A stretch of DNA of 64,000 nucleotides, taken from positions 17,057,261 through 17,121,260 of the forward strand of contig NC_003074.8 in NCBI RefSeq assembly GCF_000001735.4, read 5' to 3'. The notes beneath the pieces are model-generated. The model was not told the origin of the DNA and ran no database searches. It saw nothing but the letters and a program-made list of their open reading frames with translations. This DNA is from Arabidopsis thaliana. Its lineage: Eukaryota; Streptophyta; Magnoliopsida; Brassicales; Brassicaceae. Shown one piece after another: positions 5,969 through 52,500 of the stretch. Positions within the stretch are counted from its first letter, which is position 1. Each line of letters starts with the position of its first letter. Position numbers and translations under genes: made by a program.

Positions 5969-6164
5969 TGAATAATCCATTTTTTTCCATGTCAACATTT
6001 CTTCACCTCTCGTGTTAGTTAGTAGTTCCGTACTATTGTAGACCACTTGGATATCATACTTCACGTATAACTAACAATAAAAAAAAGGCTTATTGTCCAC
6101 TAAAAACGTACTTAATCCTTAAATTCTTTTTGCGTCTTAGTTACAGCGATGCTAGTAACGGTGA

Positions 6165-6927
6165 CTAGTCTACTTTATTTGCTATTGCGGTTTGGTGTGG
6201 ATGGAAGTGGCGGTGCAGCAATGTTTTCGGGGATAACAGGAAATGCAGTGATAGGGTGCTTTTTATCAAGGATGTAGCTGCGGAGGTTTCGTTAGCTACC
6301 ACGAGAGAAGGAACTAAGGCCGTCGACTACTCGAGTTAATATGCAGATCCGTTGGATGGCTCCTATAGAGGGTTGGTACAAAATGAACACAGATGGCGCC
6401 TCTCGCGGGAACCCAGGTGTAGCGTCTGCGGGTGGGGTGCTACGGAATAGCGCGGGAGAATGGTGTGGGGGATTTGCGGTTCATATTGGGAGGTGTTCGG
6501 CGCCATTAGCGGAGTTGTGGGGTGTGTACTATGGGTTGTATATGGCCTGGGCCAAACAACTTACGCACTTGGAGTTGGAAGTGGATTCGGAGGTGGTCGT
6601 AAGCTTCCTCAAGGCAGGGATAGGTGAGACTCATCCCTTGTCTTTCCTGGTACGTTTGTGCCAAGGCTTTTTATTAAAGGACTGGCAAGTCCGTATTTCT
6701 CACGTATATCGGGAAGCTAACAGTCTAGCTGACGGGTTAGCTAACCATGCGTTCTCTTTGTCGTTGGGTCTTCATGTTTTTGATGAGGTTCCGATTTCTG
6801 TAGTCACGCTGTTTAGCAAGGATAATAACGGGCCTGCGCGCCTAAGACAACTTCGTTTGTAATTTTTTCTATTTAGTTCTTAATAAAATCCGGGGATTTT
6901 CCCCGGTGATTCACCAAAAAAAAAAAA
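6165..6927 (+). mobile_element. 5'-truncated LINE (non-LTR retrotransposon)
   Basis: The insertion is flanked by an 11 bp target duplication, AGTAACGGTGA, at 6154-6164 and 6928-6938, and ends in a poly(A) run at 6915-6928. It holds only the 3' end of a plant L1-type element: a fragment with residues WCGWKWRCSNVFG upstream, then an RNase H domain. The upstream part and the RNase H part are in different frames. The right copy of the duplication has the empty site near 22513. Confidence 0.9.
6341..6862 (+). pseudogene. LINE-encoded RNase H domain, 173 aa fragment
   Basis: This frame encodes the C-terminal RNase H domain found at the end of many plant L1-type LINE polyproteins, which would digest RNA in the RNA-DNA hybrid. 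Motifs in order are NTDGASRGNP (first catalytic Asp), AELWGVYYGL (Glu), LEVDSEVVV (Asp), and HVYREANSLADGLAN, the last motif with its Asp. The real polyprotein started upstream, and the methionine at 6341 is only the first one in frame. A one-base shift near 6335 separates it from the upstream coding fragment, and the endonuclease and RT are missing, so it is a dead remnant. Its GC content is clearly higher than that of its surroundings. Confidence 0.85.
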
Positions 6928-7052
6928 AGTAACGGTGATGACAATTTTGATTTCAAAATATTTGGGTTTTTTTTTCTCTCCCATTTTACCACTTTTTCAT
7001 ATTCATATTACATTGTGTAGAAATTATTCATATGAGCGTTTGCTAATATTTT

Positions 7053-9622
7053 CAGGACTGGTCGAGCGATTCACTGCCAAAATTGTGAATTTTGTGCTTA
7101 CAAGATCTTCCCAACTCGGAAATGAATCTCATATTTCAACGATTGTTGCTGGTACTCCTAGATACCTTTTGATACCGAGTAAGAATTTTAAATTAACAAG
7201 TGGAATCTTTTAGTCGATGCTATACTATCCTAGATGTGAACTTCACCATGCCATGCCATGTTGAAATTTGTGTCCATATTCATATTAGTTGGTAAAATAA
7301 TGGGCACATGAATCATACTACATATTATTGTCTTGCCAGATATTACAGAACGGTTCGGTTGGCTGAGATGAGCAATGTCTACAGCTTCGGGATTGTGTTA
7401 TTGGAGATGATGACAAACCAACGTGTGATTGACCAAAACCGTGAAAAGCGACACATAACAGAATGGGTAGCTTTAGTGCTTAACAGAGGAGACATTACCA
7501 AGATCATGGATCCTAATCTTTACGGCGATTACAACTCAAATTCTGTTTGGAAAGCTCTTGAATTGGCTATGTCATGTGCAAACCCATCTTCCGAAAAACG
7601 ACCAAGCATGTCCCAAGTTATCAGCGTACTAACAGAGTGTCTTAGAGCATCTCCAATGGAGAGAACCCCTCCATGGGCTCTCTCCATTTTTATATGATTA
7701 AATTTTCTAAAAAATGTATAAGAGAGCTTTTGGTTTGTTTTTTTAGTTTTTCGTACTCTAATGATAAGCTCTCTGACTCGGGTTCTCTGAAAAATACAAA
7801 TTATTTTAAAATTATTTTATTTCATATAACTTTGTTATTATTGCAAATCAGAAAATATTAAACATACATTATTTTGAAACGTTTTAAAAAATTGTGCAAA
7901 TAAAAAAAAAGTGTTTTGTCTATGTAAAAACAAGAAATGTTGTTTGTGTTTTTGTAAAAAAGAAAGTGTTTTTCTTTTGTAAAATCAAGAATAAATGTTG
8001 TTTGGGTCTTTGTAAAAAAAAAGAAGAAGTGTTGTTTGTGTAGAAGTGTAAAACAAGAAGAAAAGGTTTTGTTTGAAATAATATGTACAATCATGCAATA
8101 CGGTTCCTTTTGGTACAAGACATTCAAAATGAGGTATCTTTCAATATAGTACAAGACATTATATTTCAAGAACTGCAATATCTCCTCACCGTGTCCTTTA
8201 TCACCTAAAGCGGCACCAAATTTCCTGAACTAAAATTGTCAATTAAATCACCCAATTTGATCTTTACAATAGGTTTCTGAAACAAAGTCACTATCATCCT
8301 TAGATTTTCAGCACCATAACTTTTCTTCTTCCTACTACCTTCTCTAATAAAGAACTACCAAAATATTACTAAACCAACATACAAAGATCCAACAGCTCCA
8401 ATATCAACAATTTTATTAAATACTACTGAAGGTCATGCCTCAAGAAAACTCCTCCATAACTCTTCTTTCAAGTCAATCAAAATACTATCAAGCAAGCAAG
8501 TAAACCTTGATCTTATCCCCTTTATGGGGCTTGTACTGTAAAATAAGAAAAAATCAAAGTAACTGCATCAACCAATAGAGTATGCAGGGAAAGCGTAACT
8601 TATTTCGTAAACTGAAGTTCCCATAACCATAACTACATCACAAAAAGGAAAGCATGAATAAGATAAACAGAGAAATCTTGAGAAGAAATCGATTAAATTT
8701 AGAATAGAGTTTCATATTAGAATTTAGAATCGTACTAGTAATGCCGACACTCCAATAAGTCCACCATGGTGCTCCACCGTTACCAGCATTTGACCAGAGC
8801 TTGATCACTGGCCATTATCATATTACAGACAAATACAACATTTTCAGCTCCATTAGTCTGTATTCGATGATAACAAAATAGAGATGGAAATGAACAAGTG
8901 CTCCTAAATTGATTCAATCACATAACATATGCAAACAAATCACGACTGATTTTTATGATTGAAAACAGAACAGATTAAATTCAAGCCAAATCCGAGAAAG
9001 TCAAAACGATTCAAACTAATATATCTATCAATATTGCCAAAACGTAATCATACAAACCTATAAACCTTAAACGTAATCATACAAAGCAAACTATAGCCGA
9101 TTTGCTATGCCGTCAACCATTACTCTACAAATCAGATTTGTTATTCTGCGATTTCACCCAACTTCTGCCGATGGTCATTAGCGTTGATGAATCCGGCGTT
9201 GGAAACCTCAGATAACACGCCAACAAACAATCACCATCGTCAATTCATCGGCTTATCAAGAGTTCACCGGTCGCGCGAGAGAGAAAGAAAATCGATTTCG
9301 GACAAAACAATGAAGACTACGCGTTTTAATTTTTTTCTTTTGTTAAAAGAAGACAACCAATAAATATAGGACACGTGTCCGCCTCTCTGCTTCCCTCATA
9401 AACTCTCTTCAGAGAAACGCCTCTCTCGTTTTCTTTTCGTTTTGATTTATTTTTAATCAAAAAAATCAAGAGAGCCTTTGAAAAATAGCTTTAAAGCCCA
9501 GCGTTAGAGATGCTCTTACTTCTAAAAACTTGATGAGAAATAAGAATCATGACATGGAATCTGATAGTTCCCTTGAACTAACCAAGAGCTTTGATACAGA
9601 AGTTGTCCCTCGTGCTAGGTAG
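7053..9622 (+). pseudogene. Receptor kinase pseudogene (truncated copy of the gene at 21128-23424)
   Basis: Only the last two exons of a receptor-like kinase survive. The first (about 7053-7180) has lost some 65 bp including the HRD catalytic loop, and its DFG codons are mutated. The last exon (from about 7340) reads [19 protein letters not shown] and is nearly identical to 23016-23424, but is split at 7645 by a Harbinger-type insertion. The rest (SSLELTKSF-like end and stop) continues at 9519-9622. The promoter-proximal half of the gene is deleted. No functional kinase can be made. It might be transcribed, but nothing here shows that. Confidence 0.9.
7645..9515. mobile_element. PIF/Harbinger-type non-autonomous element
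   Basis: The terminal inverted repeats GAGCATCTCCAA and GAGCATCTCTAA (the second from the right end) are bounded by a 3 bp duplication, TTA, at 7642-7644 and 9516-9518. That is the target preference of the PIF/Harbinger superfamily. The intact paralogous exon at 23314 shows the empty site exactly. No transposase is visible. On the minus strand a short open stretch after a good acceptor (8535 to 8488, residues YKPHKGDKIKVYLLA, then stop) could be a captured last exon, but this is weak. Confidence 0.85.
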
Positions 9623-10423
9623 CTTTTGCAAAGAAGCCTCGTATGTTTGAAGTGTTTCTTGGCTTGTGGTATGATTCTTTGGTCAAATAAGTCCTTAAAC
9701 TTTTTGTTTTGAGATATCATAACTAAAAAACAAGGGAGGAGCAGTCCTTTAATCTTGTTTTTCTCTCTTGTATGGGAAATTGTTGTTTGCAATTTCGTTC
9801 CAGATTCATTGGCTATTTATTTCTTTAAACAAAAACTTATAGCCAACAATCATATTGGCTGCAAAAAGAAGAAAATGATGCTACAAATGTCTCTTGAATT
9901 TTCTTTTATTTGATATGACTTTTCATCGTTATTAAAAGAGACAAAGCCTGAGTTACCCTCAACACCATGAAAAGACTAAGTGTTGTTCATGATACATCTG
10001 GTTTATTATGCTGCCTTCAATGTTTTCTTATTGGCCATCAAATGGCCGCTCCATGTGATAGCTCGATTGACCTCTTGGCATGAATTTATCTTTGCTGGTT
10101 TCCTTTTTTTTTTTACTCTTTTTATCCCATCTTAGTTCCCTCCATGGACAAGATCCAACAAATTTCAACACCTAAAAATGACTACAATATGAATATGCAA
10201 TGCATGTTTAATGACGATAAAAGACAAAATATAACTAAAATGCAATGAAACCAAGAAAATGGTGAAAATCTAAGAGTTAAACTAGGTAAAATACAAACAC
10301 ATCAATTTCCCATACTTGCCTTTTTATTTGTAATCAAACAAACAATGCAACAAATTTTTTTATGAAAAAGGTTTAAAAGTGGAGAGTTATAACCAAAATG
10401 CGTAGCTTACCATTTCTAAGCTC

Positions 10424-11475
10424 GAGATGAAAGATCTTGGAAAGACAAAATTTTGTCTAGGATTACAGATTGAGCACCTGAAGAATGGAATCCTTGTGTA
10501 TCAAATGACATACACAGAAAATGTGCTTAAGAGATTCTCTCTAGACAAAGCACATCCGTTGAGTAGCCCAATGATTGTAAGAACACTTGATGTGGATAAA
10601 GATCCATTCCGTCCTCGAGAAGAAAATGAAGAAATTCTTGGCCCTGAAGTACCATACTTAAGTGCAATAGGAGCATTAATGTACCTTGCTAGTCATACAA
10701 GACCTGATACATTTTCGGTGAATTTGTTAGCAAGATTTAGCTCATGCCCAACTCGAAGGCACGAGAATGGGATCAAACATCTCCTTAGATACTTGCATGG
10801 TACAAAAGATATGGGTATATTCTTCTGTAACTCGTCCAAAGAAGACTTGATTGGTTTTGCAGATGCAGGATATCTATCTGATCCTCAAAATGGTCGATCA
10901 CAAACAGGATATGTGTTCACCTACGGTGGTACTCCTATTTATTGGCGTTCTATGAAGCAAACCATTGCAGCCACTTCCTCTAACCATGTAGAGATTTTGG
11001 CTATCCATGAAGCTAGTCACGAATGTGTATGGTTAAGGTCAATTATCCATCATATACGAGGAGATTGTGGCATACTTACAGGAAAAGAAGTCCCTACGGT
11101 CATGCACGAGGATAATGCAGCATGTATCTCACAACTGAAGAAAGGATACATCAAAAGTGACAAAATCAAACATATTGTACCGAAATTTTTCTTCACCCCT
11201 GATCTACAGAAGGATGGCGAGGTACTTGTCACACAGATTCGTTCAAGCGAGAATTTGGCAGATTTATCTACCAAGGCGCTACCAACTGCTACTTTTAAGA
11301 AGTTATTCCAAAAGCTCGGATTGCGTCGTCTCAAAGATTTGTGATGTATTCATGAGGGGGAATAGATGCGCTACACTCTTTTTCTCTTAACCATAGTTTT
11401 TTCCAGTGGATTTTTTTGGTAAGGTTTTTTAATGAGGTAGCATTACATGCACATTTGCAATTCCTTTATATAATA
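10424..11475 (+). mobile_element. Copia fragment: end of pol plus start of 3' LTR
   Basis: The fragment starts abruptly inside reverse transcriptase, at the point where similarity to the right duplication copy stops. After the pol stop codon a tract with GAGGGGGAA (about 11354-11362) is followed by the LTR-like start TGCGCTACACTC. The LTR is cut off at about 11475 by the next Helitron. Both ends are therefore truncated. Confidence 0.8.
10427..11344 (+). pseudogene. Copia reverse transcriptase C-terminus and RNase H, 305 aa
   Basis: This is an open frame for the end of a Ty1/Copia polyprotein. It contains the last RT segment (MKDLGKTKFCLGLQIEH, then YLSAIGALMYLASHTRPD) followed by RNase H motifs: GFADAGYLSD (catalytic Asp), AATSSNHVEILAIHEA (Glu) and HEDNAACISQL (Asp), then a His-rich end (KSDKIKHI). 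Gag, protease, integrase and the catalytic RT motifs are absent, so it cannot act alone. That 305 codons remain open suggests recent truncation. The methionine at 10427 is an internal residue of the polyprotein, not a true start. Confidence 0.88.
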
Positions 11476-15935: not shown

Positions 15936-18900
15936 ATGGAGAGTTCCCATAGGTTTTTGTTGGTGGCGCTAACAGTAGCTTCCTCTATTATTCACCTTGT
16001 TCAAGCTCAAGCAGGTAACTACATTTTAATTCAAACGTTTAGGATTTTTATATACATTTTGAGAAAAGTGAAATGTATAATATTATTTGGATAAGCAGTG
16101 TATATCTTATTAAGTGGCTATGTTTGTAAAAACGCCTAAGCATAGAATCTACACCGTTGAGTTTGAACCATTATATTAACCTCTTCTATCTCTTTCAATA
16201 GGGTTCATCAGTTTGGATTGTGGATTATCCCCGAATGAGCAATCTCCGTATGTTGAGCTGGAAACTGGATTACAGTTCTTATCAGATTCAAGCTTCATCC
16301 AAAGTGGGAAAATTGGTAGAATTGATGCAAGTCTTGAGTCCAAGTACCCAAGATCACAGACTACGTTGAGATATTTTCCAGATGGAATACGAAACTGCTA
16401 CAACGTTAATGTTTATAAGGGAACAAATTATTTGATCAGGGCTACAATTAACTATGGAAATTACGATGGTCTTAACATTTCTCCTAGATTTGATTTGTAC
16501 ATTGGTCCTAATTTTTGGGTGACAATAGATTTGGAGAAGCATGTAGGTGGTGATACATGGGAGGAGATCATTCACATCCCAAAGTCTAACTCTTTGGATG
16601 TGTGTCTTATTAAGACTGGCACATCAACGCCGATCATATCAGTATTGGAACTAAGGTCTCTACCAAATAATACTTACATCACAGAATCAGGTTCTTTGAA
16701 GTCTATACTAAGATCATACCTAAGTGTATCAACAAAAGTTATAAGGTAAGTCAACTATTTGATATTAAAGTTTTTTCTTACCCATTTACTTTTTTTTTAG
16801 TCATTGCAAATTGTTTGTAGATAATGATGTACAAGATTGTGGTTACCGCAGGTACCCAGATGATTTTTATGATCGAAAATGGGTTCCATACTTTGAGTCA
16901 GAATGGAGGCAAATATCCACCATTCTCAAAGTGAACAACACCATTAATGGTTTTCTTGCGCCGCAAGAGGTGCTCATGACTGCCGCGGTACCTTCCAATG
17001 CTAGTGTGCCATTGAGTTTCACCAAGGATCTTGAATTCCCCAAAGATAAACTTTACTTCTACTTCCACTTCTCTGAGATCCAACCTTTACAAGCCAATCA
17101 GAGTAGAGAGTTTAGTATTTTGTGGAACGGAGAAATTATTATTCCCACTTTGAGTCCTAAATATCTAAAGGCTAGTACTCTTTATAGTGTGTCACCATTT
17201 GTTTGTGAAGTAGGGAAATGCTTATTAGAGCTGAAAAGAACTCAAAACTCAACTCTCCCGCCTCTACTTACCGCCATTGAAGTTTTTACAGTTATCGACT
17301 TTCCACAGTCTAAAACAAACGAAGATGATGGTAAGTTTTTTTATGGATAGTTAAATAATTTATGTGGAGTACATATGCTCTTTTGATGAAATAATCAAAA
17401 CATCTTTATATGCTAAATCTAGCGTAAACTTATGACAGTGAGTGCTATAAAAAACATAAAAGACACCCATGGATTGAGTAGAGTCTCATGGCAAGGAGAT
17501 CCATGCGTCCCACGACAGTTTTTGTGGGAAGGTCTAAGTTGCAACGACAAGAATGTGTCTGCATCACCAAGAATAACTTCCTTGTGAGATATCTACTACT
17601 CAACCCTCGTTAGACATTTTAGAAAACATTTTCTAACTAGTAACTACACGAGACGTTAATTATTATTTTTGTTTGGATCTAAACAGAAATTTATCTTCAA
17701 GTGGGCTAGTGGGAACCATACCTTCTGGAATTCAAAATTTTACTCTTCTCGAAAAGTTGTAAGTATGGTTAAGTGAATGAAAATAGTTTGTTAATGCAAG
17801 TGAATTTTTTTCTAATTGATTTCTTACAAATTAACTTTAGGGACTTGTCAAATAACAATTTGACAGGACTGGTGCCCGAATTTCTAGCTAAAATGGAAAC
17901 ATTGTTGTTCATGTAAGTTTTTTCCGACATGTTTATACTTTCTCATGGATAATTTCACCTGAACTTAAGGACAATTTTTTTTTTGGTTTAAACAGAGACT
18001 TGAGGAAGAACAAACTGAATGGTTCAATTCCAAATACTCTTCGTGATAGAGAAAAGAAAGGACTACAAATATTGTAAGAAGGAAATCCATTCGCACACAT
18101 TTTTTTTGTTCAAGATCTCCCTTGTGGCACAAGGCTTTTGCATTCAAAATACTAAAAGGTAGATGAATTATTTTGTTTTGTAGTGTTGATGGTGATAATA
18201 CGTGTTTATCATGTGTCCCAAAAAATAAATTTCCAATGATGATTGCTGCGTTAGCTGCTTCTGCGATAGTTGTCGCCATATTGGTACTGATTCTCATTTT
18301 CGTTTTCACAAAGAAAAAGTGGTCAACTCATATGGAAGGTATTATTAATTACCTAATTATTAACGCAACAATTTATATATTATAAGGTGTCATGGATATT
18401 GTTGTCTCACTAGATTGTTATTTGCATATATCTATCCCCATCAGTAATTTTGCCAACAATGGATATTATGTCCAAGACTATATCCGAACAATTAATCAAG
18501 ACAAAAAGGAGAAGATTTGCTTATTCAGAAGTTGTAGAAATGACAAAAAAATTCGAAAAAGCTCTAGGTGAAGGAGGGTTTGGCATAGTCTACCATGGTT
18601 ATCTGAAAAATGTAGAGCAAGTAGCGGTTAAAGTACTATCACAATCATCATCGCAAGGCTATAAACACTTCAAGGCAGAGGTATGATATGCCATAGATCT
18701 TCCTACAATATGAAAAGAAAAAAAATCACACAAATGTATTTTTGTTTTATATATTTCACATCATGTCAAACAAATGTGTTTTGTTATTGTTGGTTTGTAG
18801 GTCGAACTTCTTCTAAGAGTTCACCACATAAATTTGGTAAGTCTTGTCGGATATTGCGATGAAAAAGATCATTTGGCCCTCATCTACGAATACATGCCCA

Positions 18901-20068
18901 ATGGAGATTTAAAAGATCACTTGTCAGGTGAAAGATGAATATATATCATTATTAGAAATATTTAATTCATAGGACGACTAATTTTGACAATTTGATACAG
19001 GGAAACAAGGTGACTCTGTTTTGGAATGGACTACCAGACTACAAATAGCTGTCGATGTTGCCCTAGGTTCGTACTAACTCAATATAATTTCAGTCACTTG
19101 TTCATATTTAAAGATGTCATCATGACTCAGAAGTAGATATATATGATTCAACTATATGGACATAAAAGTATATGTAAATACATCTTAATATAAGTAAAGC
19201 ACCAAATCCATATAAACACTTTCCAGTAAAATAATTGTATCCACAATTTGACACATCTGTTATAAACATATTAAAATGATAAGACTATTATTTTACATGA
19301 AGCTTTCACTCACCGGAATTTTTAGCATCAATTAACAAGAGTGAGTCTATTTCATAGGATTGGAATACTTGCATTATGGATGCCGGCCATCGATGGTGCA
19401 TAGAGATGTCAAAAGTACAAATATATTGTTGGATGATCAGTTCATGGCCAAAATTGCGGATTTTGGGCTTTCAAGGTCGTTTAAAGTTGGAGACGAATCT
19501 GAGATTTCGACGGTTGTTGCTGGTACTCCTGGTTATCTTGATCCCGAGTAAGTACTATTAGTTCACTCCCTTGATATATACAACATATAAATTATGCATG
19601 CATTCATCTTCTTTGCCAAAATGTATACATATAAATTCTCCATCTCCTTTATTGTCCAGATATTATAGAACAAGTCGGTTGGCTGAGATGAGTGATGTAT
19701 ACAGTTTTGGGATTGTATTACTAGAGATTATCACAAACCAACGTGTGTTTGACCAAGCTCGCGGAAAAATTCACATCACAGAATGGGTGGCATTTATGCT
19801 TAACAGAGGAGATATTACTAGGATTGTTGATCCTAACCTTCACGGTGAATACAACTCTCGTTCAGTATGGAGAGCTGTTGAATTGGCTATGTCATGTGCA
19901 AACCCTTCTTCAGAATACCGGCCAAACATGTCCCAGGTTGTTATCGAACTAAAAGAGTGTTTAACTACTGAAAACTCTATGAAAGTAAAGAAAAATGACA
20001 CAGACGCTGGTAGTTCTCTCGAACTGAGCTTGAGCTTCGATACTGAGGTGGTCCCTACTGCAAGATAG
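15936..20068 (+). CDS. Malectin-like LRR receptor kinase, full length (883 aa)
   Basis: This is a plasma-membrane receptor kinase of the malectin-like/LRR-I family. Thirteen exons read in frame: 15936-16014, 16202-16745, 16852-17330, 17439-17583, 17687-17758, 17841-17912, 17996-18073, 18184-18338, 18445-18680, 18801-18927, 19001-19066, 19358-19547 and 19660-20068. In order the protein has a signal peptide (about 1-26, ending VQAQA), a malectin-like ectodomain (about 27-370, with FISLDCG and NCYNVNV), about three LRRs in small separate exons ([13 protein letters not shown]), a membrane helix (about 503-526) and a Ser/Thr kinase. The kinase has LGEGGFG, Lys604, HRD Asp701 and DFG Asp719, so it looks catalytically competent. 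The start is supported by the paralogue at 24848. It is first in a tandem array. Ligand and pathway are unknown; A. thaliana relatives at this locus are mostly uncharacterised. Confidence 0.93.
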
Positions 20069-20349: not shown

Positions 20350-23300
20350 TAAAGCCAAGTGTTACAAAATCTAGTAGAGAAACAAGAGAACATAAGGTGA
20401 CAACTCGGTGAGCTCAGAAACCATCAAATATTTTCAAGTATTAGTTAAAATATATTTCAGAAATTTAAGGAATTGGCTCAAGAATATCTGTACATATTAA
20501 ATGAACTTACATGATACAACAGTAGTAAAGAAACAAAAATCTTCAATGATATGGACGCATGTGCCGGTGATAGCACCCAGTTTACAAACGTTATAAAAAA
20601 AAAAATACAAACTCAAAAATAATAAAATTGCCTTAAAACTCTTAATGCAAAAAAAAAAAAAAAAAAAAAAAAAAACTGGCTTCAAAAACGAATATTACAT
20701 GGACAATCAGAATGTTGCACAAGACTCACTAGCCATATACGACAACCAAGTTGCATAAAGCAAAATAATAAATCATGTCAACTCTTTCTATGTCAACATT
20801 TCTTCACCTCTCATGTTAGTTAGTGGTTCCATACTATTGTAGCCTATATTTGTTTAGTTATTAGTAGTTTCTTTGTGATAAAACTAGACCACTTGGATAT
20901 TATATCACATAGACTAACAAAAAACGGCTTATTGTTCACTACAAACGTATTTTAAATTCTTCTTTGCATCTTAGTCATGTTCTCACGTTTTTTTGGCAAC
21001 TTGGGAAAGTCTTTTCTTGAAATGTCGAAAAATAATTGTGTTCTCCACTGCTTATCATCATAGATATATTGTTCAGAACTTAGGGAGTTAGGGCAGTGCA
21101 AGTCTTTTGCCTCGGCACTAAGAGAATATGGAGAATCCCCATGTACTTTTGTTGCTACCACTTATATCATCTTTATCTATTAATATTCCCCTTGTTCAAG
21201 CTCAAGCTCAAGTTAACGATGGTACCTATTTCGGTTTTATAAATTTCAGTTTGAAATTATTTGATTTTTCCTTCGTTTTTATGCCTGAAAATAGTTATAA
21301 AATCGTACCTACCGATGTCGAAGTCATATAATTGATTTAGTCACTAGCTCAATGGGTTGGACCAACTGGACCGTGCCTGGATCGCTTGTTAATCATCAAT
21401 CTTCCTAATTCAGTTCTTGATATCGTAAAAACAAAAAATCGTTGTTAACACATTGTTTGCTAATTTGTATCATTTTCCAAAACTATAGTCTATTCAAACA
21501 CCATTGACATCTTAAAATCAACAGGGTTAATAAGTCTCCAAATTCCAGTTCTCGAAATTCCAATAAAATTTGTTGTTCTTGCTGCTGCCATTGTGATCAT
21601 TCTCGTGGTACTGGTTCTCATTTGTGTGTGCAGAAAGAAAAAAGCACCAAGTCATGTCGAAGGTAGTTGAAGAGACACTCATCAACAAAATTATACGTTA
21701 CATGTTTTATTTTTATACTAAATATTTCTTTCTACAGATATACCCCCTTCACCAGTTTCATTAACTACTAGTAAATCTGAAGACTCGATCAAGACAAAAA
21801 GGAAAAAGTTTACTTATTCGGAGGTTACAGAAATGACAAGTAACTTTCAAAGAGCTCTTGGTGAAGGAGGCTTTGGCATTGTCTATCATGGTTATTTGAA
21901 TGGTTCAGAGGAAGTAGCCGTTAAAGTACTCTCTCAAACATCATCACAAGGCTATAAACATTTCAAGGCAGAGGCATGTAATCCCTTAAATCTTCCAACA
22001 AAGTTGTAACTAAAAATCTACGTGACACTTCTATATATATTATTTATGCATCATGCTAAGTTAATGTTTTTATATGTTTGTTCATTGTTTGTATGCAGGT
22101 TGAACTTCTACTGAGAGTTCACCACACGAACTTGGTAAGCCTTGTCGGGTATTGCGATGAACGAGGTCACTTGGCTCTCATCTACGAATATATGTCCAAC
22201 GTAGACTTAAAACATCACTTGTCAGGTGAAAGATTATTATTTCTTCCTTTTAAAAAATTCACATGATAACTAATTTTGATGATTTAATGCAGGAAAGCAT
22301 GATGTCTCTATTTTGAAGTGGAGTACTCGATTAAGAATAGCCATTGATGCCGCACTAGGTTTCTACTAACTCAAAATAGTTCTTAGTCACTTTGTTTGTT
22401 TAGCCAAAACGTTTTTGAGATCACTGAATATTGAACAAATATATCTTATCCTAACTTAAACTAACCTATTTTGAGTCACCTGTTAGCCAAATTTTGAAGA
22501 ATTTGTTATAGTGATGCTAATACCGGTGGTGAAATTTTTGAATTCAAAATATTGTCTTTTTTCCCCACTTTACCTTTTTTCATATTCAGATTACATTGTA
22601 TAGACATTATACATATATATGAGTGTTCGCTAATATTTTTAGGATTGGAATACTTACATATTGGTTGTCGACCATCAATGGTACATAGAGATGTCAAAAG
22701 TACAAATATATTGTTGGACGATCAATTTACTGCCAAAATTGCGGATTTTGGGCTTTCAAGATCTTTCCAACTCGGAGATGAATCTCATATTTCAACAGTT
22801 GTTGCTGGTACTCCTGGATACCTTGATCCTGAGTAAGAATTTTAAAATAACTTTCGAGCTTTTTTAATAAGTGGAATCTTCTAGTCGATGCTATACTATC
22901 CTAGATGTGAACTTCACCATGCCATGCCATGTTTACATTTTGTGTCCATATTCATATTAGTTGGTACAATAATGGACACATGAATCATACTACGTATTAA
23001 TTATTGCCTTGCCAGATATTACAGAACGGGTCGGTTGGCTGAGATGAGCGATGTCTACAGCTTCGGGATTGTGTTATTGGAGATGATGACAAACCAACGT
23101 GTGATTGACCAAAACCGTGAAAAGCGACACATAACAGAATGGGTAGCTTTAGTGCTTAACAGAGGAGACATTACCAAGATCATGGATCCTAATCTTTACG
23201 GCGATTACAACTCAAATTCTGTTTGGAAAGCTCTTGAATTGGCTATGTCATGTGCAAACCCATCTTCCGAAAAACGACCAAGCATGTCCCAAGTTATCAG

Positions 23301-24235
23301 CGTACTAAAAGAGTGTCTTACTTCTGAAAACTTGATGAGAAATAAGAATCATGACATGGAATCCGATAGTTCCCTTGAACTGACCAAGAGCTTTGATACA
23401 GAAGTTGTCCCTCGTGCTAGGTAGCTTTTGCAAAGAAGCCTCATATGTTTGAAGTGTTTCTTGGCTTGTGGTATGATTCTTTGGTCAAATAAGTCCTTAA
23501 ACTTTTTGTTTTGAGATATCATAACTAAAAAACAAGGGAGGAGCAGTCCTTTAATCTTGTTTTTCTCTCTTGTATGGGAAATTGTTGTTTGCAATTTCGT
23601 TCCAGATTCATTGGCTATTTCTTTCTTTAAACAAAAACTTATAGCCAACAATCATATTGGCTGCAAAAAGAAGAAAATGATGCAACAAATGTCTCTTGAA
23701 TTTTCTTTTATTTGATATGATTTTTCATCGTTATTAAAAGAGACAAAGCCTGAGTTACCCTCAACACCATGAAAAGACTAAGTGTTGTTCATGATACATC
23801 TGGTTTATTATGCTGCCTTCAATGTTTTCTTATTGGCCATCAAATGGCCGCTCCATGTGATAGCTCGATTGACCTCTTGGCATGAACTCATCTTTGCTGG
23901 TTTCCTTTTTTTTGACTCTTTTTATCCCATCTTAGTTCCCTCTATGGACAAGATCCAAAAAGATTCAACACCTAAAAATGACTCCAGAATGATAAATATA
24001 TGCATATGCAATGCATGTTTAATGACGATAAAAATACAAAATATAACTTAAATGCAATGAAACCAAGAAAATGGTGAAAATCTAAGAGTTAACCATGTAA
24101 AATACAAACACATCAATTTCCCACACTTGCCTTTTAATTTGTCATCAAGAAAACAATGCAACAAAAAACTTTATGAAAAGGGTTTAAAAGTGGAGAGTTA
24201 TAACCAAAATGCGTAGCTTACCATTGCTAAGCTCC
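20350..24235 (+). repeat. Right copy of the segmental duplication
   Basis: This is the uninterrupted partner of 975-10420. It contains the upstream region, the middle receptor kinase gene and about 0.8 kb beyond its stop. The upstream part (20350-21127) otherwise holds no gene, only AT-rich sequence with an A-run of about 28 at 20648-20675. Confidence 0.85.
21128..23424 (+). CDS. Ectodomain-less receptor kinase: signal peptide, membrane helix, kinase (419 aa)
   Basis: Seven exons read in frame: 21128-21221, 21525-21662, 21738-21973, 22099-22225, 22293-22358, 22643-22832 and 23016-23424. Exon 1 encodes a signal peptide (ends LVQAQAQ). Exon 2 starts like the ectodomain exon of its neighbours (GLISLQ, compare GFISLDCG), then jumps within about ten codons to the membrane exon (helix about 47-67, [20 protein letters not shown]). 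The malectin-like and LRR regions, about 450 residues in the neighbours, are gone with no frame loss. The kinase is complete: LGEGGFG, Lys140, HRD Asp237, DFG Asp255. Exon 3 ends at a GC donor (GAG|GCATGT) where both neighbours have GT. It may be a signalling partner lacking ligand-binding domains or a dying gene; intact frame and motifs favour the former. Confidence 0.85.
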
Positions 24236-24847: not shown

Positions 24848-27800
24848 ATGGAGAGTCTCAAGAAGCTTTTGTTGGTTGCATTAATAGCAACTTCTGCCAT
24901 TCACCTTGTTCAAGCTCAAAATCAAGACGGTACCAACATTTCAATGTTTCAATAGAATTTGTTTCCTTTTACAAATTTTTATCACCTTTAGCACTAGGGG
25001 TAATATATTATGGAACGGATATTCAATTTTGGTTTTTGTAATTCGTTCGGTTATGCCACAATCGGTCCTCTGATCGGTATTCTGCTATGCAACTAAGCAT
25101 ACAACTGTTAAAGTATTTCCCACCCGTTCGTACAAAACGTTATAAATAATTTCAAACACTAGAAAAAGTTACAAAAATTCAACCAAAAATTGCAATACAC
25201 TTATCATTTTTTCTTAAATTTTAAAACTCTTTGATGAATACAACTAAGATAACTATACAATTATGTTTTTTTCAATACCTTTTTGTGTGCATGCTAGATT
25301 ACTAATATAAGTTAAAAAAGGTCTTAGTTCACAAACTAATCCTTTATTTATATAATGGGATAGTTTGATGAGGAATTTTTATCTAGTTTTGGTAATACGA
25401 TTTTAATATCTTAACAGGATTTATCAGTGTAGACTGCGGATTATCTCCTAATGAGGTCTCTCCTTATATTGAGCCGTTTACTGGACTACAGTTCACAACG
25501 GATTCAAATTTCATTGAAACCGGAAAACTTGGTAGAATTCAGGCAAGCCTAGAGCCGAAGTACCGAAAGTCGCAAACGACGTTGAGATATTTTCCTGATG
25601 GAATACGCAACTGTTACAATCTTACAGTGACACAAGGAACCAACTATTTAATCAGAGCTAGAGCAATATATGGGAATTATGATGGTCTTAACATTTATCC
25701 TAAATTTGACTTGTACATAGGCCCTAATTTTTGGGTAACAATAGACTTAGGAAAGTATGTAAATGGTACATGGGAGGAGATCATCTACATACCAAAATCT
25801 AATATGTTGGACGTGTGTCTTGTCAAGACAGGGCCGTCCACACCATTGATATCATCCTTGGTGTTAAGGCCTCTTGCAAATGCTACTTACATCACTCAAT
25901 CTGGTTGGTTGAAGACTTATGTTCGGGTTTATCTAAGCGACTCAAATGACGTCATACGGTAAGTCATCTTAAAGAAACGCGGTTTTCGGACTAGGACATT
26001 GCTCTTAGCATATATATTTTGTAAATGTTTTAACTATTGAAAAGAGCGGTTACAAGCTCTAAGAATATTTTATGGCTACTAATTCAAAATTGTACAAAAT
26101 GTAGATATCCGGATGATGTCTATGATCGTATATGGGGTTCATACTTTGAGCCGGAGTGGAAGAAGATTTCCACTACACTTGGAGTGAACAGTTCTAGTGG
26201 ATTTCTGCCTCCACTAAAGGCACTCATGACTGCCGCCTCTCCTGCCAATGCTAGTGCACCATTGGCTATTCCCGGAGTACTAGATTTCCCAAGTGATAAA
26301 CTATACTTGTTCCTCCACTTCTCTGAGATTCAAGTCTTAAAGGCCAACGAAACTAGAGAGTTCGAAATTTTTTGGAATAAAAAGCTTGTTTACAATGCTT
26401 ATAGTCCTGTATATCTACAGACCAAGACTATACGCAACCCATCTCCAGTTACTTGTGAAAGAGGAGAATGCATACTAGAGATGATCAAAACTGAGAGGTC
26501 AACTCTCCCGCCTTTGCTTAACGCCGTTGAAGTTTTCACAGTGGTTGAATTTCCTCAGCCGGAAACAGATGCTAGTGATGGTACGTTAGCAATAATCTTA
26601 CAACGTTTGAAAATATGTTTTACCATAACTAATCTTAAATGCTAAATCTAACATATTTTCAAACATTGTCGAATTTTATGATAGTGGTGGCTATAAAAAA
26701 CATCAAGGCCATCTATGGATTGACTCGAGTCACATGGCAAGGAGATCCATGTGTTCCTCAACAATTTTTGTGGAACGGTTTAAATTGCAACAGCATGGAG
26801 ACGTCTACACCTCCAAGAATCACTTCCTTGTGAGAAAACCTTTTCATATAATAAGAAACGTTTAAGAAAACCTTTTCATATAATAAGAAACGTTTTCTAA
26901 CTGCATTATTACTTTTTTTGTGCTATGATGTTTATATAGGGACTTGTCTTCAAGCGGGTTAACCGGAAGCATATCAGTTGTTATTCAAAATCTTACCCAT
27001 CTAGAAAAGTTGTAAGTATGGTGTTTATTAGTCTTAGGGGAAAAAAAAAGTGATATATATACTTCATGAAGGTAACTAATTATTTCAGTGACTTTGTTTT
27101 CTTCCAAACTATATAGGGATTTGTCAAATAACAACTTGACTGGGGAAGTTCCCGATTTTCTAGCAAACATGAAATTTCTTGTGTTCATGTAAGTTCCTTT
27201 ACATATAAATATATTTTGTTTAGTGATATTCTTCTTGATCATGGTCACCTATGTATGAATATTCCTCTGGTTTAACAGAAACTTAAGCAAGAACAATCTG
27301 AATGGTTCGATTCCTAAAGCTCTTCGCGATAGAGAAAATAAAGGACTTAAGTTAATGTAAGATGTAACTTATGCTGAAAATATTTCATTAAACATTCATG
27401 GCCGTCTACATATCCATAATATCTATTTGCTTTTGTAGTGTCGACAAAAATGTGGACAACTGCTCATCTGGTTCATGCACCCAAAAAAAGAAATTCCCAT
27501 TGCTTATTGTTGCATTAACTGTTTCGTTGATCCTAGTCAGTACAGTGGTATTGGTTCTCATTTGTATGTTGAAGAAAAAAAACACATCAAATGTGAAAGG
27601 TATTGTCCAAGTCATCATGTGAAAGTACACAAAATTCATTCATGTACTAACTGCGCTCTCTACAGATTTACCCTCACAATCAATTCCGCCAGAAGCAAAT
27701 CATACATTGGATGGTGTATCGGAAACAATGATCGAAACGAAAAGGAAAAGATTTAGTTATTCGGAGGTTATAGACATGACAAATAACTTCCAAAGAGCTC

Positions 27801-29274
27801 TAGGAGAAGGAGGGTTTGGTGTCGTTTATCATGGTTATTTGAATGGTTCAGAGCAAGTAGCTGTCAAATTACTTTCGCAATCATCAGTACAAGGCTATAA
27901 AGAATTCAAGGCAGAGGTATGAATATTTTCTTAGAAAATCTCAAGCATTATGTTAGACCAATGTGCTTCATTCATTGTTTTTTTCATTTTGATAGTTAAA
28001 CACTTGGCTCTAAAAAAGATAATTAAACACTTCATTCATTGTTGTTTTGTAGGTTGAACTTCTTCTAAGGGTTCACCATATAAATTTGGTAAGCCTTGTT
28101 GGGTATTGCGATGATCGCAATCACTTGGCTCTCGTCTACGAATACATGTCCAATGGAGACTTAAAACATCATTTGTCAGGTAAAAACATATGTACATTAA
28201 CATTTTAATTTACTTTTAAAAGACATTTTAATTATTACAAACAATTCTTTTGACGATTGATTTTGAGGATAAATTACAGGAAGAAACAATGGTTTTGTTT
28301 TGAGTTGGAGTACTCGACTACAAATAGCTGTCGATGCTGCACTAGGTTTGTGTTAACTCATAATGATTTTATTAATTTATTTTTCACATTCTAAACATTT
28401 CCTAGGATCACTAGACATACGTACATAAAAGGACATTTGCAAAATATTAATAGGATTGGAATACTTACATATTGGATGCCGACCATCGATGGTGCATAGA
28501 GATGTCAAAAGTACGAATATACTGTTGGGTGAGCAGTTCACAGCCAAGATGGCTGATTTTGGGCTTTCAAGGTCTTTCCAAATTGGTGATGAAAATCATA
28601 TTTCTACGGTTGTTGCTGGTACTCCTGGATATCTTGATCCCGAGTAAGTATCCTCAGTCTACTAATAGATGTGATCAACATGTTTGTTCCATAACTAAAA
28701 TTTTCACATAGAAGTCTAGATTTACTAATCCTGTTAGTGAACTATATAACACGAAACAAAGAGATGATTTTTTTTTTCAAAAATGCTGAGGTTTGTGTGG
28801 ACGGATATTTTTCGCGTTTAAGAATGCATATGAGTGAATCTTTTACTATTTTCTTACCTTAACAGATACTACAGAACAAGTCGGTTGGCTGAGAAGAGCG
28901 ATATCTACAGTTTTGGGATTGTGTTATTGGAAATGATCACAAGCCAACATGCGATTGATCGAACCCGCGTGAAACATCACATAACAGACTGGGTGGTGTC
29001 TTTGATTAGCAGAGGAGATATCACACGGATCATTGATCCCAATCTTCAGGGCAATTATAATTCTCGCTCTGTCTGGAGAGCTCTTGAATTGGCTATGTCA
29101 TGTGCAAACCCTACATCAGAAAAACGACCAAACATGTCACAAGTTGTTATCGATCTGAAAGAATGTCTTGCTACTGAAAATTCAACGAGAAGTGAGAAAG
29201 ACATGAGTTCTCATAGTTCTGATCTTGATCGTAGCATGAACTTTTACACCGACATGGTTCCTAGAGCTAGGTAG
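24848..29274 (+). CDS. Malectin-like LRR receptor kinase, full length (889 aa)
   Basis: Thirteen exons: 24848-24929, 25418-25958, 26105-26580, 26685-26829, 26940-27011, 27117-27188, 27279-27356, 27439-27599, 27666-27916, 28053-28179, 28280-28345, 28454-28643 and 28866-29274. The layout is the same as in the gene at 15936: signal peptide (ends HLVQAQ), malectin-like ectodomain (FISVDCG, NCYNLTV), about three LRRs ([13 protein letters not shown]), a membrane helix encoded by exon 8 ([19 protein letters not shown]), and a kinase with LGEGGFG, Lys610, HRD Asp707 and DFG Asp725. The activation segment ends [10 protein letters not shown], as in the two sister genes. All intron phases match the first gene, supporting tandem duplication. 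It probably acts as a cell-surface signalling receptor; the ligand is unknown. Confidence 0.94.
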
Positions 29275-49529: not shown

Positions 49530-52500
49530 ATGGCGGGAAACTATAATTATCCGAGTAGCGGTGGTTTTAATCGAGATTGGATGTACAAGAGGTTCGATGA
49601 AATGACGGGAATTTGTCAGCAGAATACGTCGCAGGAGTGGAGGAGTTCTTGACATTTGCTAATAGCCAGCCTATAGTACAAAGTTGTCGAGGTAAATTCC
49701 ATTGTCCTTGTGCTGTGTGCAAGAATAAAAAACATATCGTCTAGGGTAGAAAAGTTAGTAATCATTTGTTTAGTCAAGGATTTATGCCAGATTATTATGT
49801 TTGGTATATGCATGGGGAAGATTTCAACATGAATGTAGGAACGAGTAATTATGTAATTGATAGTACGTATCTAAGAGAGAATTATGAAAGTGCGGGTAAT
49901 GTTGTAGAAGATCCATATGTGGATGTGGGTAATGTTGTAGAAGATCCATATGTGGATATGGTGAACGATGCATTTCGTTATAACGTGGGGTTTGATGATA
50001 ACTATCATCAAGACGGTACTAATCAGAATGTGGAGGAACCAGTACGTAACCATTCTAAAAAATTCTACGACTTGTTAGAAGGTGCTCAAAATCCATTGTA
50101 CGATGGTTGTCGACAAGGCCAGTCTCAATTATCGTTAGCAGCTCGAGTCATGCAGAACAAGGCGGATCATAATATGAGTGAAAGATGTGTGGATTCGGTA
50201 TGTCAAATGTTGACAGATTTTTTACCAGAAGGAAACCAAGCTACTGATTCGCATTACAAGCCAGAAAAATTGATGCGCAATTTAGGCCTTCCTTATTATA
50301 CAATTGATGTTTGTATTAACAATTGTATGATTTTCTGGAAAGAAGACGAAAAGGAAGATAAATGTTGGTTTTGTAGTGCTCAAAGATGGAAGCCTATGGA
50401 TGACTACCGTCGAAGAACCAAAGTGCCATATAATCGTATGTGGTATCTACCTATTGGTGACCGATTGAAGAGAATGTATCAGAGCCACAAGACGGCAGCT
50501 GCAATGCGTTGGCATGCAGAGCACCAATCAAAAGAAGAAGAAATGAATCATCCTTCAGATGTGGCGGAGTGGAGATATTTTCAAGAGCTACATCCCACGT
50601 TTGCCGAAGAACCCCGTAACGTTTATCTCGGATTATGTACCGATGGATTCAATCCATTTGGCATGTCGCGAAATCATTCTTTGTGGCCTGTGATCCTGAC
50701 TCCATACAATTTACCACCGGGTATGTGCATGAATACAGAGTACTTGTTTCTTACAATTTTGAATTCTGGGCCAAATCACCCGCGAGGTAGTCTCGATGTC
50801 TTCCTCCAACCTCTTATTGAGGAGCTAAAAGAGTTATGGTCTACTGGAATCGATGCATATGTTGTGTCTTTGAATCAAAATTTTAATCTAAAAGCAGTGT
50901 TGCTGTGGACGATAAGCGACTTTCCGGCGTACAGCATGTTATCAGGATGGACAACCCACGGTAAACTGCCTTGTCCAATTTGCATGGAAAGTACTAACTC
51001 TTTTTATCTACCTAATGGAAGGAAGACGTGCTGGTTTGATTGTCACCGAAGATTTCTTTCTCATGGTCATCCATTACGGAAGAACAAAAAAGACTTCCGA
51101 AAAGGAAAAGACGCTTCTACCGAGTATCCACCTGAGTCTTTAACCGGTGAGCAAATTTATTACGAGCGGTTGTCTAGTGTAAATCCACCAAGAACCAAGG
51201 ATGTTGGTGGCAACGGTCACGAAAAGAAGATGCCAGGCTATGGGAAGGAACATAACTGGCACAAGGAAAGCATATTATGAGAGCTTTCATATTGGAAGAA
51301 TCTGAATCTCCGACATTGTATCGATGTGATGCATACAGAGAAGAATTTTTTGGATAACATAATGAATACTCTTATGAGCGTGAAGGGTAAATCAAAGGAC
51401 AACATAATGGCAAGAATGGATATAGAACGATTTTGTTCTCGGCCTGACTTACATATTGATAGTAAGGGAAAAGCTCCATTTCCAGCTTATACATTGACAA
51501 ATGAAGCCAAAATGAGTTTATTGCAATGTGTTAAACATGCAATCAAATTCCCTGATGGTTATTCGTCTGATTTGAGTAGTTGTGTTGATATGGAGAATGG
51601 GAAGTTATCAGGTATGAAGAGTCATGATTGCCATGTTTTCATGGAGCGGTTACTTCCATTTATCTTTGCAGAACTCCTCGACCGGAACGTTCACCTTGCA
51701 TTATCAGGTAAAATAAGAATATAATTTACTCTTTATATCATATATGCACTTGAGATGATGATTTTTTTTTCCAGGGGTTGGCGCATTTTTTAGAGACTTA
51801 TGTTCGAGAACTTTGCAGAAAAGTCGCGTTCAAATTCTTAAGCAGAACATTGTTTTGATCATATGCAACTTAGAGAAGATCTTCCCACCATCATTTTTTG
51901 ATGTTATAGAGCACCTGCCTATACATCTCCCCTACGAAGCAGAATTGGGCGGTCCTGTCCAATATAAGTGGATGTATCCTTTTGAGAGGTTTTTTAAAAA
52001 GTTGAAAGGAAAAGCAAAAAATAAAAGATATGCGACCGGATCAATTGTTCAGTCATATATCAATGACGAGATTTCTTATTTCTCAGAGCACTACTTTGCC
52101 GATAATATACAAACAAAATCAAGGTAACCATGAATTATCGATGTGATGCAAGTTTTCAATGCGCAAAAATAACCATGAATTACCTCTTTTGGATCAGGTT
52201 AACAAGATTCAATGAGGGTGAAGTTCCTGTATATCATGTTCCTGGAGTACCTACTATATTTAGTTCTGTTGGTCGTCCAAGTGGAGAAATACGTGAAGTA
52301 TGGCTATAAGAGGAAGACTATCAATGCGCACATGGATATGTTATACGGAATTGTGATTATTTTCAAGTAATTGAGAGGTATATAACAAAGTCATACTCCC
52401 ATTTTAAGTTAATTATATAAATGTTTGTTTACTAACCCTTATATGTTGTTTTTGTCTTTATATAGTATGTTCGAAGATTTTCTTTCTATTAAATATCCAG

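Follow-up and report, generated by a model that had tools for sequence, protein, structure and literature searches.

A receptor kinase gene that lacks its ectodomain and still holds an open frame raises the question of whether it encodes a working signalling protein or is on its way to being lost. We addressed this question for a 419-codon gene at 21128-23424 (+) of the window, the 64,000-nucleotide stretch of Arabidopsis thaliana chromosome 3 that was analysed (C3:17057261-17121260; genome 119.7 Mb). The gene, which we take to be At3g46410, lies in the best-studied plant, with full-length siblings adjacent for comparison. If its product is made, the locus would provide a natural test of the cytoplasmic half of its subfamily without any ligand; if it is not made, the locus clearly illustrates a truncated paralogue that is functionless in spite of its intact frame, and cautions against taking an open frame as a sign of function. 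The locus name At3g46410 was absent from the main texts of the literature searched; the string '3g46410' found there belonged to rice and rapeseed gene names and was rejected as not the Arabidopsis locus.

Gene model, splice sites and encoded protein

Rebuilding the gene from the DNA gave seven exons on the + strand with an open frame of 419 codons and a stop codon. Exon 1 (21128-21221), located by the rebuilt model, blastn and a spliced aligner, carries the start codon and the signal peptide and ends at the donor ATG|GTACCT. In exon 2 (21525-21662), the codons that begin the malectin domain (GLISL) are fused with the membrane-helix exon, as seen in the model, a multiple alignment and a hydropathy profile. 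Exon 3 (21738-21973) encodes the juxtamembrane region, Met110 (ATG at 21833), the glycine loop and Lys140. The remaining exons, supported by the model and the aligner, encode the rest of the kinase: exon 4 (22099-22225), exon 5 (22293-22358), exon 6 (22643-22832), in which a motif check placed HRD Asp237 and DFG Asp255, and exon 7 (23016-23424), which contributes the C-lobe, the tail and the stop codon. The spliced protein-to-genome aligner was written for the purpose; queried with the rebuilt 419-aa protein, it returned the identical seven exons, a result that checks splice sites and frame and is not independent of the model.

Relatives were collected genome-wide, where 40 of 47 candidate loci were scored, so that the list is a lower bound. 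Gene models were built for 35 of them, 29 outside the chromosome-3 cluster and six within it. Five of the six donors of the 419-codon gene are GT, and the donor of intron 3 (21974-22098, +) is GC (GAG|GCATGT), whereas the homologous donor is GT in all 29 relatives outside the cluster and in all six chromosome-3 paralogues. The original prediction had described a frame intact through seven exons; the frame held when rebuilt, but the GC donor that it needs had been overlooked. When the second intron base was ignored, this donor outscored 79% of the family's GT donors and ranked at the top of the gene's six. Use of the GT that lies four bases downstream would lead, after a frame shift, to a stop codon, and an in-frame GT 48 bases upstream scored low. 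GC-AG introns account for 1,742 of 161,774 annotated introns in A. thaliana (1.08%), and SymRK, a malectin-LRR receptor kinase, has a GC donor in most of the dicots examined (PMC10668435). Given these precedents and the good donor score, the GC donor is a caveat and not a fatal defect; joining of exon 1 to exon 2 and use of this donor are predictions of the model. Among 365 introns of LRR-RLK-I models outside the cluster, the aligner placed 11 GC donors; two of these read AAG|GCAAGT and look like genuine GC-AG introns, and the others may be artefacts of the aligner. Scans of the window with Rfam (gathering threshold) and for tRNA genes gave no matches.

The encoded protein has a hydrophobic stretch at residues 7-18, in the signal peptide region, and a helix at residues 48-66 with a mean Kyte-Doolittle value of 3.7; the residues between them, 25-46, contain no glycosylation sequon. 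Pfam detected the kinase (PF07714, E 5e-46; PF00069, E 4e-45) and a sub-threshold ABC1 match in the 419-aa protein, and neither the malectin-like domain (PF12819) nor an LRR. The glycine loop (residue 119), the VAVK Lys140, the HRD Asp237 and the DFG Asp255 were all present, the last three just where the original prediction had put them. The full motif set of an active kinase is thus encoded, and the product is predicted to be an active protein kinase. Its nearest solved structures, among the best 60 of 2573 matched sequences, were SymRK kinases (6m0u, 259 bits).

Internal loss of the ectodomain

The gene is flanked by two full-length neighbours. The first, at 15936-20068 (+) and presumably At3g46400, encodes 883 aa in 13 exons by the spliced aligner and gave malectin-like, LRR and kinase matches in Pfam. 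The second, at 24848-29274 (+), which we take to be At3g46420, encodes 878 aa by the spliced aligner. Relative to the 883-aa neighbour, the 419-aa gene is without 464 aa and six introns. This bears out the loss of about 450 residues and six introns that had been proposed; the other neighbour, given as 889 aa, came out at 878 aa with this aligner, which leaves the finding unaffected.

In blastn comparisons, exon 1 matched each neighbour within 21119-21212 (DNA identity 70% and 74%), and the membrane exon of the neighbours was matched from about 21605. Between 21212 and 21605 there was no blastn match to either neighbour, so that intron 1 showed no detectable malectin or LRR remnant. An alignment over the initial 80 bases of exon 2 was obtained only with the multiple alignment. 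In it, the first 13-14 bases corresponded to the malectin exon start of the six chromosome-3 paralogues, and from about AAATTCC onwards the sequence corresponded to their membrane exon. The predicted make-up of exon 2, malectin start codons joined to the membrane exon, was therefore recovered, apart from a short stretch between the two matches that contains a second AAATTCCA. We suggest that this stretch could be filler DNA from end joining. The best explanation of these alignments is that one of the tandemly clustered malectin-LRR receptor kinase genes (LRR-RLK-I) underwent an internal deletion, in frame, that would have joined the start of its malectin exon to its membrane-helix exon, while its 5' end, with the start codon and signal peptide of exon 1, survived. 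Consistent with the original claim, the rebuilt model, the alignments and Pfam agree that signal peptide, membrane helix and kinase were kept as open sequence.

This architecture was not found in the other family members examined. At least one ectodomain motif was present in every one of the 35 relatives (GDPC in 34, the malectin-start pattern in 32 and the RxFPxG pattern in 33), and an in-frame stop occurred in 2 of the 29 models outside the cluster. Three further loci without an ectodomain were fragments, namely a duplicate within the window, C3:17032972 and C3:16882143. Among the genes examined, the 419-codon gene alone combines an intact frame with the absence of an ectodomain. The fragment at C3:16882143-16882801, about 140 kb from the cluster, is a kinase-only piece from the same subfamily with an in-frame stop near the exon 5-6 boundary.

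A kinase tree was built from 27 sequences, leaving out seven models in which the start-motif pattern was missed and two with an in-frame stop. The gene fell within the chromosome-3 cluster group, its exact sister being uncertain (support 52). By kinase grouping it belongs with LRR-RLK subfamily I, and the malectin-like ectodomain and the LRRs before the helix that mark this subfamily are absent. It resembles its chromosome-3 paralogues in kinase sequence, exon 1, the positions and phases of the kinase exons and tandem location, and differs from them in the missing malectin-like domain and LRRs, six fewer introns and one GC donor.

Selection on the kinase and decay of a nearby duplicate

A dN/dS branch model was fitted to 10 of the 27 kinase sequences. 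The terminal branch of the gene gave a dN/dS of 0.22 against a background of 0.25 (dN 0.057, dS 0.26), an average over a branch that started before the deletion. A value of 1 was rejected (2x log-likelihood difference 33.3, p 8e-9), and the profile limits were roughly 0.13-0.37, with 0.15 and 0.35 allowed and values of 0.12 or less and 0.4 or more excluded. The tree of the main fit was not the best of three; the alternative topologies gave 0.20 and 0.21, the value of 0.20 coming from a topology that was better by 4.7 log units. By part, dN/dS was 0.18 for the exons up to exon 6 and 0.28 for exon 7, and single paralogues ranged from 0.11 to 0.45. The value for the gene is like those of its paralogues. 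These data support purifying selection on the kinase and suggest that the gene is probably constrained.

The 5' part of the frame behaved differently. With five sequences, dN/dS was 1.29 for the signal peptide (background 0.80) and 0.42 for the helix region (background 0.50); taken together they gave 0.73, which was not distinguishable from 1 or from the background. Since these segments yield no usable estimate, constraint is established for the kinase alone. Because constraint on the signal peptide and helix could not be demonstrated, the gene might instead produce a soluble kinase of 310 residues from Met110, through a downstream transcription start or skipping of exon 1, that would resemble receptor-like cytoplasmic kinases and lack both signal peptide and helix. 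In keeping with this alternative, selection is demonstrable in the kinase part alone, the first in-frame ATG downstream of exon 1 is that of Met110, and this ATG has a usable context. The TAIR model of At3g46410 begins at exactly this ATG (21833). However, exon 1 and its start codon have stayed open at the site usual for the family, a splice donor follows, and the encoded helix is strongly hydrophobic. A Met110-initiated product is the less likely reading, and a precursor that starts in exon 1 is favoured.

The intact frame can also be read as a recent deletion allele that is becoming a pseudogene, its kinase conservation predating the deletion and its truncated product being functionless. The silent divergence of the branch (0.26) must include time before the deletion, and with an upper dN/dS of about 0.37 against a background of 0.25, approximately 15% of the branch could be neutral. 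For indel rates taken to be 0.08 and 0.15 per substitution, neutral evolution over 0.01 silent substitutions per site would leave the frame intact with a probability of 0.11-0.22, so that a deletion younger than about 0.01 substitutions per site is possible; at 0.02 per site, this probability falls to 0.05 or less, and the frame is intact. Decay would also fit the single GC donor in place of GT, the dead state of the nearby duplicate and the two other genomic fragments, and the mostly transient nature of kinase-only truncations, which make up 2 of 8 conserved domain losses (PMC7318236).

The duplicate in the window (5984-9998, +) served as an internal control. By blastn, the sequence common to it and the 419-codon gene consists of a fragment lying upstream, a portion of intron 5 and exon 6, exon 7 and the 3' flank; two insertions have interrupted the duplicate. 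In its exon 6, the HRD region has been removed by a 69-base deletion, and 2 bases have been inserted. Divergence between the two copies was highest in intron 5 (16%) and exon 6 (13%), lower in intron 6 (4%) and lowest in exon 7 and the 3' flank (1.0-1.2%). This drop to about 1% suggests recent gene conversion in the 3' part of the pair. Over 527 bp polarised by the six paralogues, the changes in the gene were 4 silent and no replacement, against 1 silent and 16 replacement in the duplicate (Fisher p 0.0008); in this count position 22722 is a tie at the amino-acid level (3 D, 3 E), the polarity of 22797 is weak, and the change at 22830 in the gene was scored silent (CCT vs CCC). Harsher scorings kept the contrast (p 0.004-0.012). 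Constraint on the kinase is thus seen both along the branch and for the period after the gene and its dead copy separated. In exon 7 alone, where the copies differ by about 1%, the duplicate had 1 silent and 4 replacement changes and the gene 1 silent and no replacement change, a pattern that speaks against decay of the gene. A pseudogene in the making is the less likely reading, although one to be taken seriously; on the favoured reading, constraint would have continued after the deletion. Use of the duplicate as a clock for the deletion was ruled out, since its counterpart of 20976-22520 has been lost.

Several mobile elements lie in or near this duplicate. The insertion in its exon 7 (7645-9515; 1871 bases) has matching inverted ends (GAGCATCTC) with TTA on both sides, and resembles a DNA transposon that duplicated a 3-base target. 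Also inside the duplicate, the stretch 6296-6928, in which a reverse-transcriptase-like RNase H frame (PF13456) precedes a run of A, looks like the 3' end of a LINE. A 312-codon frame at 10406-11344 resembles the end of a copia-type polymerase, its Pfam RVT_2 match falling below the curated cut-off. Elsewhere in the window, the 504-codon frame at 49766-51280 reads like a CACTA-type transposase.

Predicted action and relation to known truncated kinases

If translated from exon 1, the precursor would enter the membrane with a complete kinase on the inner side, a single helix and approximately 20 residues exposed. Such an anchored kinase, blind to ligand, would influence the partners through which its full-length neighbours signal, whether by basal, ligand-independent signalling or by competition for cytoplasmic partners. 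A membrane-bound form of SymRK produced by cleavage is unstable and has stronger binding to its partner NFR5 (PMC12582464), and full-length SymRK, when overexpressed, signals in the absence of ligand (PMC4243133); by analogy with these two findings, ligand-independent signalling or competition by the headless protein is plausible. OAK, a member of the same subfamily, needs its kinase activity, and its phenotype was suppressed when the extracellular domain was expressed by itself, from which the authors deduce dimerisation through that domain (PMC3136440). If OAK dimerises in this way, the headless protein should not be recruited from outside, and with the ectodomain absent whatever it does should depend on the kinase or the helix. 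We hold this reading, a membrane-anchored kinase without ligand perception that modulates the pathways of the full-length neighbours, tentatively, at a little under an even chance.

The original prediction had offered constitutive, decoy and co-receptor roles, and by the same analogy the co-receptor role appears to be the weakest of these, because the dimerisation domain described for OAK (PMC3136440) is lost in the 419-aa protein. Receptor kinases with short ectodomains are often co-receptors, but such ectodomains are about 250 residues long (QSK1 252, QSK2 245; PMC6683012). The stub retained here, of about 20 residues with neither an LRR nor a glycosylation sequon, is not a short folded LRR ectodomain of the SERK/QSK type and offers little to bind. 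Action as a co-receptor or decoy through this stub is highly improbable, and an effect of the anchored kinase from the cytoplasmic side is preferred.

On its sequence features, the gene is a member of the published class of kinase-only (RLK-only) LRR-RLK truncations: it is of LRR-RLK origin, has kept the kinase and lost the LRRs, and has no cryptic LRR adjacent (blastn, 21212-21605). The available text of PMC7318236 counts 252 such truncations among 2536 genes in trees, two conserved kinase-only clades, and 14 kinase-only genes in A. thaliana, seven of them clade I genes that code for a malectin-like ectodomain, and seven in other clades; judged by these text counts, the 419-codon gene seems not to be among the 14. 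According to the same source, very little is known about these genes, and they are argued to be short-lived since loss of the ectodomain region parts the kinase from its promoter (PMC7318236). Like them, the 419-codon gene has kept its kinase, lost its LRR ectodomain and has close full-length paralogues in tandem; unlike them, its loss is internal, and the 5' end with the signal peptide stays (PMC7318236). Deleting an internal segment in frame, and so sparing the 5' end, is a simple way to avoid promoter loss. The fuller proposal, that a single internal deletion created a selected, working headless receptor which kept its ancestor's start codon and signal peptide, escaped the usual 5' loss and persists as a ligand-independent regulator of its own cluster, may be correct but is doubtful. 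Across 146 accessions, presence/absence variation is almost universally high in LRR-RLK-I genes (PMC12382012), so that polymorphism at the 419-codon locus would be unsurprising and the locus may be dispensable.

Two other systems resemble the predicted protein. The processed form of SymRK, whose kinase was also the closest among the structure matches above, belongs to the malectin-LRR receptor kinase family and is likewise a membrane form without the malectin part; SymRK's form is made by proteolysis and retains its LRRs, whereas the form described here would arise by deletion (PMC12582464). PSTOL1-type kinases (LrK10-related) similarly have no extracellular domain and a predicted membrane segment and kinase (PMC13207577), but they derive from the LRK10-like receptor family in different plants.
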